DNA from: Natronomonas sp. CBA1123
GTDB lineage: Archaea > Halobacteriota > Halobacteria > Halobacteriales > Haloarculaceae
Assembly (NCBI RefSeq): GCF_009741925.1
Contig: NZ_WPCC01000019.1
Coordinates: 1-56,954 of the forward strand
Length of the DNA: 56,954 nucleotides
Direction: 5' to 3'
In this document: positions 38,787 to 53,145 of the stretch, piece after piece
How positions within the stretch are numbered: the stretch's first letter is position 1
How the letters are laid out: every line of letters begins with the position of its first letter
Notes under the pieces: model-generated
What the model was told of the DNA's origin: nothing
Database searches by the model: none
The model's input: the letters and a program-made list of their open reading frames with translations, nothing else
Translations under genes and position numbers: made by a program

Positions 38787-40418
38787 GTGCCAAACGAGGA
38801 ACCGGCGCGTCTGGCCACCGAACTCGCCAGCCACGGCTACACCGCCGACCGGGAGGCGATTACGCTGCTCGCGCGTGCGGAGAACCCCGCCGAGGCGCTG
38901 TTGGTGGCCGTCGAGGCCACGCCCGACGACGCGCTGAAACTTTCGGCGGCCGACGTTCGCGACGCCCTCGACGGCACACCGAGAGGGCGACGGGACCCGA
39001 TTTCGGGAAGCGAGGAGGATGCGGCGGCCGACGCCACGATGGACACGGCAGCGACGACGGATGCGCCGGCGACGCCTGCAAGTGGTGCCGACCACTCGAC
39101 CGAAGACCCCTCTGTTTCAAGTGGAACCCCACAACCCCAATCGAGCGGTTCGGGGGGTGTGTCTCCAGTTGAAACGAAGGGGTCTTCGGGGAGCCGAGAC
39201 ACCGACCCCTCGCTGCGCTCGCTGGAAATCGGCAACGACATGACCGGCCACTCGACCGGGATCGGCGAGTACGAGGACTTCGTGGCGACGTTTCGGGACC
39301 GCTACGACCGGCTTTCGGGGAAACTGAAGGGCCGGGTCAACCACCGCAACGCGACGGCGCTGCAGGCCAGCCCTGGCGGCGGCGACGCCGGCATGGTCGG
39401 GATGGTCTCGGACGTCCGCTCGACCGCGAACGGCCACTGGATTATCGAGTTAGAGGACACGACGGGCGTGTTCCCCTGTCTCGTGATGAAGGACAAGGAC
39501 ATCGCCGACCTCGTCGAGGAGTTGCTGTTCGACGAGGTCATCGCCGTCGACGGGACGCTCTCTGACGACGGGAGCATCATGTTCGTCGACAGCCTCCACT
39601 TCCCGGACGTCCCCCGGACGTACAAGCCATCGACGGCGGACCGCCACGTCCAAGCCGCGCTCATCAGCGACGTCCACGTCGGCAGCGAGGAGTTCATGGT
39701 CGACGCCTGGCAGCGGTTCACGTCGTGGCTCCACACCGAGGAAGCCGAGAACATCGAGTATCTGCTGTTGGCCGGAGACATGGTCGAAGGCGTCGGCGTC
39801 TACCCCGACCAGGACGAGGAACTCGACATCGTCGACATCTTCGACCAGTACGAGGCGTTCTCGGAGCACCTCAAGGAGGTCCCCGGCGACATGGAAATCG
39901 TCATGATACCCGGCAACCACGACGCGGTCCGGCTCGCGGAGCCGCAACCCGGCTTCGACGAGGAGTTACGCGACATCATGACCGCCCACGACGCCCGCAT
40001 CGTCTCGAACCCGGCGATGGTCTCCGTCGAGGGCGTCTCGGTGTTGATGTATCACGGCGTCTCCTTAGACGAGGTCATCGCCGAACTCCCCGAGGAGAAG
40101 GCCAACTACGACGAACCGCACAAGGCGATGTACCAACTGCTGAAGAAACGCCACGTCGCCCCGCAGTTCGGCGGCCACACCCGACTGGCCCCCGAGGAGA
40201 AGGACTACCTCGTCATGGACGAGGTGCCCGACGTGTTCCACACCGGCCACGTCCACAAACTCGGGTGGGGGAAGTACCGGAACGTGCTGGCGGTGAACTC
40301 CGGCTGTTGGCAGGCCCAGACCGACTTCCAGAAGAGCGTCAACATCGACCCAGACGCCGGGTTCGCGCCGATTCTCGACCTCGATACGCTGGAGATGACG
40401 GTTCGGAAATTCACCTGA
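38787..40418 (+). CDS. polB: DNA polymerase D small subunit DP1 (3'-5' exonuclease)
   Basis: A 543-residue subunit. N-terminal residues 1-65 form a helical domain; about 66-160 are a low-complexity acidic Ser/Thr/Pro linker; an OB-fold follows (GMVGMVSDVRSTANGHWIIE). Then comes an Mre11-like calcineurin phosphoesterase with SDVHVGS, LAGDMVEG, PGNHDAVR, YHGVSLDE and HTGHVHKLGWG, the proofreading nuclease of PolD. The start is GTG at 38787. The linker coding DNA contains an inverted pair of ORB-like elements (39102-39188), described separately. Confidence 0.95.
   Translation: MPNEEPARLATELASHGYTADREAITLLARAENPAEALLVAVEATPDDALKLSAADVRDALDGTPRGRRDPISGSEEDAAADATMDTAATTDAPATPASGADHSTEDPSVSSGTPQPQSSGSGGVSPVETKGSSGSRDTDPSLRSLEIGNDMTGHSTGIGEYEDFVATFRDRYDRLSGKLKGRVNHRNATALQASPGGGDAGMVGMVSDVRSTANGHWIIELEDTTGVFPCLVMKDKDIADLVEELLFDEVIAVDGTLSDDGSIMFVDSLHFPDVPRTYKPSTADRHVQAALISDVHVGSEEFMVDAWQRFTSWLHTEEAENIEYLLLAGDMVEGVGVYPDQDEELDIVDIFDQYEAFSEHLKEVPGDMEIVMIPGNHDAVRLAEPQPGFDEELRDIMTAHDARIVSNPAMVSVEGVSVLMYHGVSLDEVIAELPEEKANYDEPHKAMYQLLKKRHVAPQFGGHTRLAPEEKDYLVMDEVPDVFHTGHVHKLGWGKYRNVLAVNSGCWQAQTDFQKSVNIDPDAGFAPILDLDTLEMTVRKFT
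39102..39188. other. Inverted ORB-like initiator-binding elements inside the DP1 gene
   Basis: The plus strand reads GACCCCTCTGTTTCAAGTGGAAC at 39105-39127 (split here as GACCCCTCTG and TTTCAAGTGGAAC). About 36 bases on, the minus strand reads GACCCCTTCG then TTTCAACTGGAG (39163-39184). Both match the origin elements at 50420-50442 and 50683-50705 (ACCCCTTTG-TTTCAACTGGAAC; minus-strand ACCCCTTCG-TTTCGAGTGGAAC), and the C-rich ends point outward in both places. No AT-rich unwinding region lies between them, so it is probably a binding site and not an origin. Confidence 0.65.
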
Positions 40419-47018: not shown

Positions 47019-48143
47019 ATGGCGGACGACGACATGCTGTCGTGGGACGAGTCGGTGTTCCGCGACGAGCACGTCCTCGAACTGGATTACCTCCCGGAGG
47101 CGTTCTTACACCGCGACGAGCAGATGGAGACGCTGAAGTACGCCCTCCGGCCGGCCGTTCGCGGCTCCCGACCGCTGAACGTGATGGCTCGGGGGCCCCC
47201 CGGGACCGGCAAGACGACGGCCGTCCAGAAACTGTTCGACGAACTCACGAGCGTCAGCGACATCGAAGTCGTCCGTGTGAACTGTCAGGTCGACTCGACG
47301 CGATACGCCGTGTTCTCGCGGCTGTTCGAGGGACTGTTCGACTACGAACCGCCGACCTCTGGCATCTCGTTCAAGAAACTGTTCGGACAGATTACCGACC
47401 ACCTCGTCGAGGAAGACGAGGTCCTCGTCGTCGCGTTAGACGACGTGAACTACCTCTTCTACGAGGACGAAGCGTCCGATACCCTGTACTCGCTGCTGCG
47501 AGCCCACGAAGCCCACTCCGGGGCGAAAATCGGCGTCATCGTCGTCTCATCGGACCTCGATTTGGACGTCATCGAGGAACTCGACGGCCGGGTTCAATCC
47601 GTGTTCCGGCCGGAGGAGGTGTACTTCTCGGCGTACGGCGAGCGCGAAATCGTCGACATCCTCCGGGAGCGCGTCGAACGCGGCTTCCGGGAGGGCGTCG
47701 TGGGGACGCGAGTCTTGGACCGAGTCGCTGAACACACCGCCGACAGCGGCGGCGACCTCCGGGTCGGTATCGACCTGCTCCGACGGGCGGGACTGAACGC
47801 GGAGATGCGCGGGTCGACCGAGGTGAGCGTCGAGGACGTCGACGACGCCTACGAGAAGGCCAAGTACGTCCATCTTTCCCGGCATCTTCGCGGGCTCTCG
47901 GAATCCGAAGCCGCCCTCGTCAGGGTGCTCGCGGAACACGACGGCGAACGCGCCGGGGACGTCTACGAGGCCTTCAGCGAGACGACCGACCTCGGCTACA
48001 CTCGCTACTCCGAAATCATCAACAAACTCGACCAGCTCGGCCTCATCGACGCGGAGTACACCGACGTCGAGGGACGGGGACGTTCGCGGGCGCTGTCGCT
48101 GTCGTACGATTCCGACGCGATTCTCGACCGACTGGAAGAGTGA
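47019..48143 (+). CDS. Orc1/Cdc6 family replication initiation protein
   Basis: A 374-residue AAA+ initiator. Walker A ARGPPGTGKTTAVQKLF, Walker B-like VLVVALDDVNYLFYED, sensor region GVIVVSSDLDLDVIEELDGR, a lid domain and a C-terminal winged helix (YTRYSEIINKLDQLGLIDAE). The Walker B reads DD where most Orc proteins have DE. Distinct from the larger Orc1 at 51141. Convergent with oapC and about 2.3 kb from the origin; its own target may be elsewhere. No ORB repeat was noticed directly upstream. Confidence 0.95.
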   Translation: MADDDMLSWDESVFRDEHVLELDYLPEAFLHRDEQMETLKYALRPAVRGSRPLNVMARGPPGTGKTTAVQKLFDELTSVSDIEVVRVNCQVDSTRYAVFSRLFEGLFDYEPPTSGISFKKLFGQITDHLVEEDEVLVVALDDVNYLFYEDEASDTLYSLLRAHEAHSGAKIGVIVVSSDLDLDVIEELDGRVQSVFRPEEVYFSAYGEREIVDILRERVERGFREGVVGTRVLDRVAEHTADSGGDLRVGIDLLRRAGLNAEMRGSTEVSVEDVDDAYEKAKYVHLSRHLRGLSESEAALVRVLAEHDGERAGDVYEAFSETTDLGYTRYSEIINKLDQLGLIDAEYTDVEGRGRSRALSLSYDSDAILDRLEE

Positions 48144-50413: not shown

Positions 50414-50442
50414 CACCCCCACCCCTTTGTTTCAACTGGAAC
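50414..50442 (+). other. Origin recognition box (ORB), left copy
   Basis: C-rich string CACCCCCACCCC directly followed by TTTGTTTCAACTGGAAC. It matches the haloarchaeal ORB design of a G/C string plus an inverted-repeat core, and is the inverted partner of the copy at 50683-50711. Confidence 0.8.
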
Positions 50443-50479
50443 GGTGAGAAGGGGCAGGGGTGTGTCGAGAAGAGGTGAG

Positions 50480-50640
50480 GAGTTGTTAGTGTATCTAGAT
50501 ATGGTGGACGAACTAGACTAGAATTTCGGTTGCTAGCTCCAGATTCCTAGCAACACAACAAGGAAAACAACTAGACTAATTCCTTTCTTCTCTAGTACGG
50601 CTTTGGTTTAAGTCTACTATATATAAATCTTACCTAGTTA
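50480..50640. other. AT-rich DNA unwinding element of the origin
   Basis: The AT content rises sharply here against a GC-rich background, with TCTACTATATATAAATCTTA at about 50611-50630 and several CTAG tetramers (for example CTAGACTAG near 50511). CTAG is normally rare in haloarchaeal DNA. Flanked by inverted ORBs, this is the expected melting site. Confidence 0.8.
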
Positions 50641-50682
50641 GGAGACGTCCCACCCACGACTACCCCCTCCCCACCTCTCCAC

Positions 50683-50711
50683 GTTCCACTCGAAACGAAG
50701 GGGTGTGGGGG
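50683..50711 (-). other. Origin recognition box (ORB), right copy
   Basis: GTTCCACTCGAAACGAAG followed by GGGTGTGGGGG: core then G-string, the inverted counterpart of the left copy, on the far side of the AT-rich tract. Confidence 0.8.
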
Positions 50712-51109: not shown

Positions 51110-51132
51110 CGTTCCACCTGAAACAGGGGGGT
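51110..51132 (-). other. Additional ORB-like element before orc1
   Basis: GTTCCACCTGAAACAGGGG with a trailing GGTTC lies 9 bases before the orc1 ATG. The core and G-string match the other boxes. Its location in the 5' leader suggests autoregulation by Orc1. Confidence 0.7.
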
Positions 51133-51140
51133 TCAGAACG

Positions 51141-52895
51141 ATGACAGACGACGATTCGAACACATCAACTGACGGAGGTGATAGTTCGGCGGTACCCGAC
51201 GACTCGAACGTAGGTACCTCGACCACCGAGAAGAGCCGTGGCTCCACCGACGACTCGGCCTCGACAGCGACGGATGGCTCCGAGAGGACCGACCCGGCGA
51301 CTGATGCGGATGAGGTACCGGCACCGGAATCCGAAGAAATAGCCCCAAACGACGGTGATTCTCCACCGGAAGCGGAGGGGTCGGCCGTCGACGCCAGCGT
51401 CGACGCCACGGACGTCGACACACAGGGTCGCAGCGTCGACGGGTTCTCCGGGGATGTCGATTTGGAGGACCTCGACCTCGACGCCGCCGCCGACGAGGAG
51501 ACCGACGAGGCCTCTCGTGGGCTGTTCGACGACTTGCTCGAAGGCGAACCCATCTTCGAGAACAAGGAAGTCCTCCGACCCTCCTACACCCCGCGGAAAC
51601 TCCCCCACCGCGAGGAGCAGATCAACAACATGGCGACCATCCTCGTCACGGCCCTGCGCGGGGAGACGCCGTCGAACATTCTCATCTACGGCAAGACGGG
51701 CACCGGAAAGACCGCCAGCGCGAAGTTCGTCTCCGAGGAGTTGGAGACAACCTCCGAAAAGTACGAGGTCCCCTGTGAAGTCGAGTACATCAACTGCGAG
51801 GTAACCGACACCCAGTACCGCGTGCTCGCACAACTCGCGAACAAGTTCATCGAGAAGAACGAGGCCTACATCGAGCGTCGACTCGACGAACTCGACGAAC
51901 TTCGTGACGACGCCGCGGCGGACCCCTCCGTTCTCGAGGGCACCGAGTTCGACAGCGTCGCGGCGGTCGAAACCAAGATTCGGGACCTCGAAGACGACCT
52001 CGAAGAGTTCGAACCCGTCCCGATGACGGGGTGGCCGACCGACCGGGTGTACTCGACGTTCTTCGACGCGGTCGACTACCACGAACGCGTCGTCGTCATC
52101 ATGCTCGACGAAATCGACAAACTCGTCGAGAAGTCGGGCGACGACACGCTCTACAACCTCTCGCGGATGAACTCCGAGCTGGAGAACTCCCGGGTATCGA
52201 TTATGGGCATCTCCAACGACCTGAAGTTCACCGACTTTCTCGACCCGCGGGTCAAATCCAGCCTCGGCGAGGAGGAAATCGTCTTCCCGCCGTACGACGC
52301 TACCCAACTTCGGGACATCCTCCAACACCGTTCGGAAATCTCGTTTAAACCCGACACGCTCTCGGACGACGTGATTCCGCTGTGTGCGGCCTTCGCGGCA
52401 CAGGAACACGGCGACGCCCGCCGTGCGCTCGACCTGCTTCGAACCGCCGGAGAACTGGCCGAACGGGACCGCACCGAGACCGTCGAGGAGAAACACGTCC
52501 GCCACGCCCAGGAGAAAATCGAACTCGACCGCGTCGTCGAAGTGGTCCGAACTCTCCCGACCCAATCGAAACTCGTCCTCTACGCCACCATCCTCTTGGA
52601 GGAAAACGGCGTCCACAACATCAACACCGGCGAGGTGTTCAACATCTACAAGCGACTCTGTCAGGAAATCGACGCCGACGTGCTCACCCAACGCCGGGTG
52701 ACCGACCTAATCAGCGAACTCGACATGCTGGGCATCGTCAACGCCGTCGTCGTCTCGAAGGGTCGCTACGGCCGGACGAAGGAAATCAGCCTCTCGGTTC
52801 CGCTCGACGAAACCGAAGCCGTCCTGCTGTCTGACTCCCGGGTCGGCGAGGTCGAGGAGGCCCAACCGTTCGTGCAGGCGCGGTTCGATAACTAA
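51141..52895 (+). CDS. orc1: Origin-linked Orc1/Cdc6 initiator with long acidic N-terminus
   Basis: A 584-residue initiator. Residues 1-130 are a disordered Asp/Ser/Thr/Glu-rich extension not present in most Orc proteins. The AAA+ core follows: VLRPSYTPRKLPHREEQINN, Walker A YGKTGTGKTASAKFV, a helical insertion (ERRLDELDELRDDAAADPSV), Walker B VVVIMLDEIDKLVEKSGDD, sensor SIMGISNDLKFTDFLDPRVK and HGDARRALDLLRTAGELAER. A C-terminal winged helix (RRVTDLISELDMLGIVNAVV) ends it. The ATG at 51141 is chosen over the in-frame TTG at 51030 because the latter would put ORB sequence inside the gene. Confidence 0.95.
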   Translation: MTDDDSNTSTDGGDSSAVPDDSNVGTSTTEKSRGSTDDSASTATDGSERTDPATDADEVPAPESEEIAPNDGDSPPEAEGSAVDASVDATDVDTQGRSVDGFSGDVDLEDLDLDAAADEETDEASRGLFDDLLEGEPIFENKEVLRPSYTPRKLPHREEQINNMATILVTALRGETPSNILIYGKTGTGKTASAKFVSEELETTSEKYEVPCEVEYINCEVTDTQYRVLAQLANKFIEKNEAYIERRLDELDELRDDAAADPSVLEGTEFDSVAAVETKIRDLEDDLEEFEPVPMTGWPTDRVYSTFFDAVDYHERVVVIMLDEIDKLVEKSGDDTLYNLSRMNSELENSRVSIMGISNDLKFTDFLDPRVKSSLGEEEIVFPPYDATQLRDILQHRSEISFKPDTLSDDVIPLCAAFAAQEHGDARRALDLLRTAGELAERDRTETVEEKHVRHAQEKIELDRVVEVVRTLPTQSKLVLYATILLEENGVHNINTGEVFNIYKRLCQEIDADVLTQRRVTDLISELDMLGIVNAVVVSKGRYGRTKEISLSVPLDETEAVLLSDSRVGEVEEAQPFVQARFDN

Positions 52896-53145
52896 CGACC
52901 TTTTTGCACGCTCGGCGCTGCGCGCCTCGCGGCAAAAACGTCGATGAAAAAGACACTGCGGGCCTCCCTACGGTCGGCCCTTGATCCCACGCTCGCGCCT
53001 GCGGCGCTCGCGTGGTGAAACGCCTCGCTATCGCTCGGCGTACAATAGCATCCACAAGCACCGCAGGCACGAGCGGCTCACTCCGTTCGCTCGCGGATGC
53101 TCGTCCTCCATCGAACCCCTTCGTTTCGTATGGAGAATCGTATCC
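52896..53145. repeat. Repeat-rich spacer downstream of orc1
   Basis: It contains several palindromes (for example CTCGCGCCTGCGGCGCTCGCG near 52992, quoted here as its two halves CTCGCGCC and GGCGCTCGCG). The core AAAAACGTCGATGAAAAAG at 52934-52952 matches the sepF-upstream repeat at 4639-4657 on the other strand with one mismatch. The T-rich CCTTTTTGC right after the orc1 stop (52900-52908) may terminate that transcript. No gene is seen. Confidence 0.6.

Follow-up and report, generated by a model that had tools for sequence, protein, structure and literature searches.

The gene for the small subunit of DNA polymerase D (DP1) in Natronomonas sp. CBA1123 contains an inverted pair of origin recognition boxes (ORBs), which very probably constitutes a selected binding site for the initiator Orc1. 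The reading that fits best is that the pair is a conserved element outside the origin that binds Orc1, holds it off oriC1 and thereby damps re-initiation; we put the probability of this role, negative control of initiation, at about one half. The comparisons described below show that the boxes match the ORBs of oriC1, are selected as DNA, keep a fixed orientation and a mostly fixed spacing, and survive in the absence of DP1.

Position and rarity of the box pair

The window is the whole stretch of DNA that was analysed, 56,954 nucleotides in length. The initial annotation had proposed an inverted ORB-like pair within DP1 with the C-strings facing outward, and this arrangement is borne out by the following features.

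38787–40418, + strand: DP1, DNA polymerase D small subunit, host gene of the boxes (NCBIfam NF003116, E 1e-293)
39100–39189, no strand: whole inverted repeat, with arms at 39100–39143 and 39146–39189
39106–39127, + strand: left origin recognition box, a C-string plus GTTTCAAGTGGAAC, inside DP1 (sequence match; codon-level selection in relatives)
39128–39161, no strand: 34-bp spacer, its length kept and its sequence drifting
39162–39183, − strand: right origin recognition box, inverted, inside DP1 (sequence match; codon-level selection in relatives)

The left box reads ACCCCTCTGTTTCAAGTGGAAC and the right box, on the minus strand, reads ACCCCTTCGTTTCAACTGGAGA. Both fit the C/G-string and GTTTCnAsTGGA core of the oriC1 ORBs of the same genome. 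The gap had been given as 36 bases; 34 bp separate the 22-bp boxes, and a value of 36 depends on where the boxes are cut. The arms of the inverted repeat are 44 bp long and 77% complementary, longer than had been stated. The profile matched by DP1, NF003116, is that of the DNA polymerase II small subunit, and the pair falls after the N-terminal region and before the OB fold, 320–400 bp from the start codon. The origin and its surroundings comprise the following.

50421–50442, + strand: left ORB of oriC1 (full-box match)
50443–50682, no strand: AT-rich DNA separating the two ORBs of oriC1 (overall AT 0.54; highest 40-bp value 0.75)
50683–50704, − strand: right ORB of oriC1 (full-box match)
51111–51132, − strand: single ORB just upstream of orc1 (full-box match)
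51141–52895, + strand: orc1, which encodes the Orc1/Cdc6 initiator presumed to recognize the boxes
53115–53136, + strand: single ORB just downstream of orc1 (full-box match)

The oriC1 ORBs flank AT-rich DNA upstream of orc1. The DP1 pair is ~11.2 kb from the first of them, in agreement with the ~11 kb given previously. The absence of AT-rich DNA between the boxes, which had also been pointed out, is confirmed by an AT content of 0.32 in the spacer versus 0.54 between the oriC1 ORBs; no AT-rich stretch is found around the pair, where the maximum AT per 40 bp is 0.475 across 38850–39490.

The box is rare. Its core has five matches in the window with no more than one mismatch, against 0.5 expected, and none of 100 shuffles reached five. 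Pattern searches of the 3.45-Mb assembly find the full box, CCCCNNNGTTTCNNNTGGA, at seven exact places (one for the reversed control), so that the genome-wide search suggested with the initial annotation returned few stray matches. Six of the seven are in the window, two in DP1, two in oriC1 and one on each side of orc1, and one is elsewhere. In other Halobacteria, too, a genome contains only a few full boxes, and most of these are at oriC1/orc1 and DP1. Because of this scarcity the DP1 pair makes up a large share of a genome's stock of high-quality ORBs. Taken strictly, as inverted cores with 28–50 bp between them, the paired pattern has a single occurrence in CBA1123. Within the class, 137 of 391 genomes contain it, almost always as a single copy, and the matches listed include no reversed-control pair. 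A relaxed survey at exact spacings gives 259/391, which is an upper estimate, as ~15 genomes have a reversed-control match and the places are only partly confirmed to be in DP1. A chance match as the source of the pair is ruled out by the shuffles, the reversed controls and the genome-wide rarity.

Conservation and selection of the boxes

We compared 161 distinct halobacterial DP1 loci, a sample enriched for close relatives. With a good box defined as 17/20 or better, both boxes are good in 108 loci, one in 37 and none in 16, and the inverted pair spans several families of Halobacteria. The spacer is 34 bp long in 99 of the 108 intact pairs and 31, 46, 49 or 52 bp in the remainder, and the stretch separating the right box from the conserved core comes in 34 different lengths between 32 and 395 bp. 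Position by position, the boxes are near-invariant and the spacer and flanks are close to free. The proposed check on the linker DNA of relatives, whether the boxes persist there, was therefore answered in favor of the element, with spacer sequence and linker length drifting around it. Because Halorubrum has the right box only, the left box is degenerate in Haloferax and some other halobacterial lineages have neither, the pair is evidently not universally needed.

Codon usage within the boxes was evaluated in a non-circular manner: loci were selected by one box alone, and the other box was then read at a constant offset from it. In the left box, Val is encoded by GTT in 100% of cases, where 4% is expected from codon use in the same genes, Thr by ACT in 100% (4%) and Gly by GGA in 99% (7%). 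A similar pattern is seen in the right box, with TCT for Ser in 96% (1%), CCA for Pro in 99% (5%), GAA for Glu in 100% (23%) and GGG for Gly in 100% (24%). The peptides encoded are DPSVSTGT in the left box and SPVETKGS in the right, and since the opposite reading orientations yield these unrelated peptides, only the DNA motif is common to both. Codon usage thus biased shows selection at the level of DNA rather than protein. The codon test, together with the encoding on opposite strands, leads us to reject a protein motif as the cause. These data illustrate that coding DNA can be held almost unchanged for a function exerted at the DNA level.

Role of the pair

In the mechanism that we favor, two Orc1 molecules would bind the DP1 pair facing each other, and as the boxes enclose no AT-rich DNA, this complex would open no DNA. 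The pair would hold Orc1 away from oriC1, by sequestering it or by promoting an inactive state, and re-initiation would be damped, as it is by oriC2D for oriC2 and by datA for DnaA. The conserved spacing hints at a defined complex of two Orc1 molecules rather than a passive sink, and, judging from Halorubrum with its one box, part of the function may be fulfilled by a single site. Two points count against titration in its simple form: two boxes are a small sink, above all in polyploid cells, and neither fixed spacing nor inversion is required by it. Among the three roles put forward in the initial annotation (repression of the polymerase gene, titration of the initiator in the manner of datA, and an old origin turned coding), titration nevertheless gives the best fit, because the pair is on the orc1 chromosome, its distance from orc1 is variable, it lacks unwinding DNA and oriC2D provides a precedent. 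The other two are disfavored, as discussed below.

The pair is usually 2–12 kb from orc1. Intact pairs are also present in G066 and G067, where 87 kb and 131 kb, respectively, separate DP1 from orc1, and both boxes are kept in 11 of 14 loci without orc1 nearby, so the pair need not adjoin oriC1. A dependence on closeness to oriC1 was considered and rejected, as intact pairs in linked and unlinked genomes leave no simple link. As would be expected of a titration locus, the boxes are outside the origin, are conserved on the orc1 chromosome and have no need of immediate proximity to the origin. A role in long-range architecture, in which Orc1 on the DP1 pair would contact Orc1 at oriC1 (by looping or handcuffing) or would serve to organize or segregate the origin region, is possible, and we regard it as the less likely reading. 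The inverted pair and its kept spacing suggest a defined complex, the usual distance is short, and the pair stays on the orc1 chromosome in Halocatena; however, specific looping would be harder at 87–131 kb, and single boxes persist in Halorubrum.

The genus Halocatena separates the boxes from DP1. In five genomes (G039, G042–G045), DP1 is on a contig apart from orc1 and is without boxes. The contig in question in G043 (C2) corresponds in length and in the position of DP1 to a plasmid of 532,509 bp in Halocatena salina AD-1 (NZ_CP096020.1), and contig structure points to a plasmid location in the other four. Because a tree places these plasmid-type DP1 proteins apart from the chromosomal DP1 of G040, of the same genus, the data suggest replacement by a foreign copy (a xenolog). 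No similarity to DP1 is left in the five genomes at the old site beside orc1 and a signal-peptidase-like gene. The inverted ORB pair is still found at the vacated, non-coding site in three of the five species (G042, G043 and G044).

L256, 10050/10123: intergenic pair
L257, 9606/9682: intergenic pair
L259, 4557/4633: intergenic pair

The other two species (G039 and G045; L255, L258) have the right box alone. At 73 or 76, the spacing of the intergenic pairs does not preserve the reading-frame register of DP1, as would be expected in non-coding DNA; in G040, where DP1 is in place, the pair is inside the gene at a spacing of 77 (L254). The replacement counts as one evolutionary event in five species, not five. 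Because boxes are evidently maintained here without DP1, and DP1 evidently works without boxes, we infer that the element is not there for the DP1 protein or for DP1 expression. As a separate observation, the only DP1 detected in Halocatena (L251–L253, L260, L261; NZ_CP096020.1), part of the replicative PolD, is borne on a megaplasmid and apparently horizontally acquired.

These genomes bear on the proposal that Orc1 binding in the gene body regulates DP1 transcription, coupling polymerase supply to initiation. The pair is within DP1 in most haloarchaea examined, and DnaA binds near polA in E. coli (PMC11317965). In Halocatena, however, the boxes are not inherited together with DP1 as a regulatory site of that gene would be, and the DP1 of the outgroups described next is also box-free, so that this role, including the repression proposed initially, is improbable.

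Outside the class, the DP1 linker is box-free in the 20 genomes sampled (Methanosarcinia and relatives), where DP1 often lies a short way downstream of orc1. A left box is present in G164 (L209), a divergent member of the order. Because outgroup DP1 lacks the boxes and this divergent genome has one, the element looks like an early halobacterial acquisition. The pair could also be an origin, either an auxiliary or dormant one or a former one since converted to coding DNA, given that its layout of inverted ORBs with outward C-strings is that of oriC1. This is quite unlikely: an origin has inverted ORBs flanking an AT-rich unwinding region, whereas the DP1 pair has no AT-rich DNA, its Halocatena intergenic copies are not visibly AT-rich, its spacing is 34 bp versus roughly 200–260 bp in oriC1, and outgroup DP1 has no boxes even though the orc1–DP1 linkage is kept in many of the outgroups sampled. 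Least credible is selection on the peptide or on an mRNA hairpin instead of Orc1 binding. In its favor, the amino acids are fairly conserved, and of three species whose repeat was folded as RNA, two gave a strong fold (z −5.3, −6.8, −1.6). Against it, synonymous constraint is extreme, single-box lineages exist, and the pair persists out of frame register in non-coding DNA of Halocatena. In 72 of the 108 pairs, moreover, the variable triplets of the two boxes are not the same, and pairing at variable positions is only slightly above shuffles (63/2000), at most a weak excess of covariation.

Known systems and significance

The closest parallel to an extra-origin Orc1 site restraining oriC1 is oriC2D of Haloarcula hispanica. 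In the available text of PMC3936714, oriC2D has 11 ORBs downstream of cdc6E and shows no autonomous replication, can be deleted only if oriC2 is deleted too, and lowers the copy number of an oriC2 plasmid, which is attributed to initiator titration. The same text describes nothing comparable for oriC1. The DP1 pair would be the natural candidate there. The two have in common ORBs outside the origin for a local initiator, on the same chromosome and without origin anatomy. However, oriC2D is intergenic, holds its 11 ORBs in 722 bp and serves Cdc6E/oriC2, whereas the DP1 element has two boxes at a mostly fixed 34-bp spacing, is embedded in a coding gene, is of oriC1 type and is spread across the class. 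The E. coli locus datA damps re-initiation by DnaA and has been proposed to act as a sink or an inactivator. Like datA and the DnaA-box clusters outside oriC, the DP1 pair consists of initiator boxes that do not adjoin the origin; the initiator is a different one, and the DP1 boxes are embedded in coding DNA. The archaeal oriC1 ORB pair shares with it the box consensus, the inversion and the outward C-strings, but the DP1 pair has no AT-rich unwinding region, is much more closely spaced, is inside a gene and is not always beside orc1.

To our knowledge, how archaea prevent over-initiation at oriC1 is poorly understood, and in the literature searched we found cis control of this kind demonstrated only for oriC2, by oriC2D. 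That literature, the main text of openly accessible papers, makes no reference to ORBs in DP1; in one review, from 2020, DP1 is noted only for its location near oriC1. Origin searches limited to intergenic regions, as in PMC3528665, miss the pair. What is new here is a class-wide Orc1-type site selected as DNA, a coding-embedded variant of extra-origin initiator boxes with a probable regulatory role. Its two boxes are precisely defined and conserved across the class, and synonymous changes to them can be studied in haloarchaea that are amenable to genetics.

In Methanosarcinales, taw1 (TIGR03972) contains one isolated full ORB, on the minus strand (L268–L297; L180, L181, L186–L188). The gene follows DP1 in several species of this group, and the box persists where taw1 is some 40–60 kb from DP1. 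Across 30 genomes, its codons are TCT for Ser in 29/30 (16% expected), CCA for Pro in 30/30 (24%), GGG for Gly in 28/28 (10%) and GTG for Val in 22/23 and 24/25 at two places (15–17%). This pattern suggests that Halobacteria are not alone in having initiator sites within coding DNA. A dedicated archaeal locus for Orc1 control, a counterpart of datA hidden in coding DNA as a phased pair in halobacterial DP1 and a lone ORB in Methanosarcinales taw1, and perhaps arisen more than once, is a tentative extension of these data.

Several further observations concern the neighborhood of orc1. Single ORBs occur right before and after the gene (51111–51132 and 53115–53136), as they do in several relatives, and possibly serve autoregulation or as extra sinks. 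A second, shorter ORC1-type gene is located at 47019–48143, ~2.3 kb from oriC1. Finally, in G149 (L193, L264), the oriC1 boxes are ~156 kb from DP1, beside the usual oriC1 neighbor genes, and orc1 is still ~4 kb from DP1; the origin and the initiator gene appear to have been split apart in this genome.
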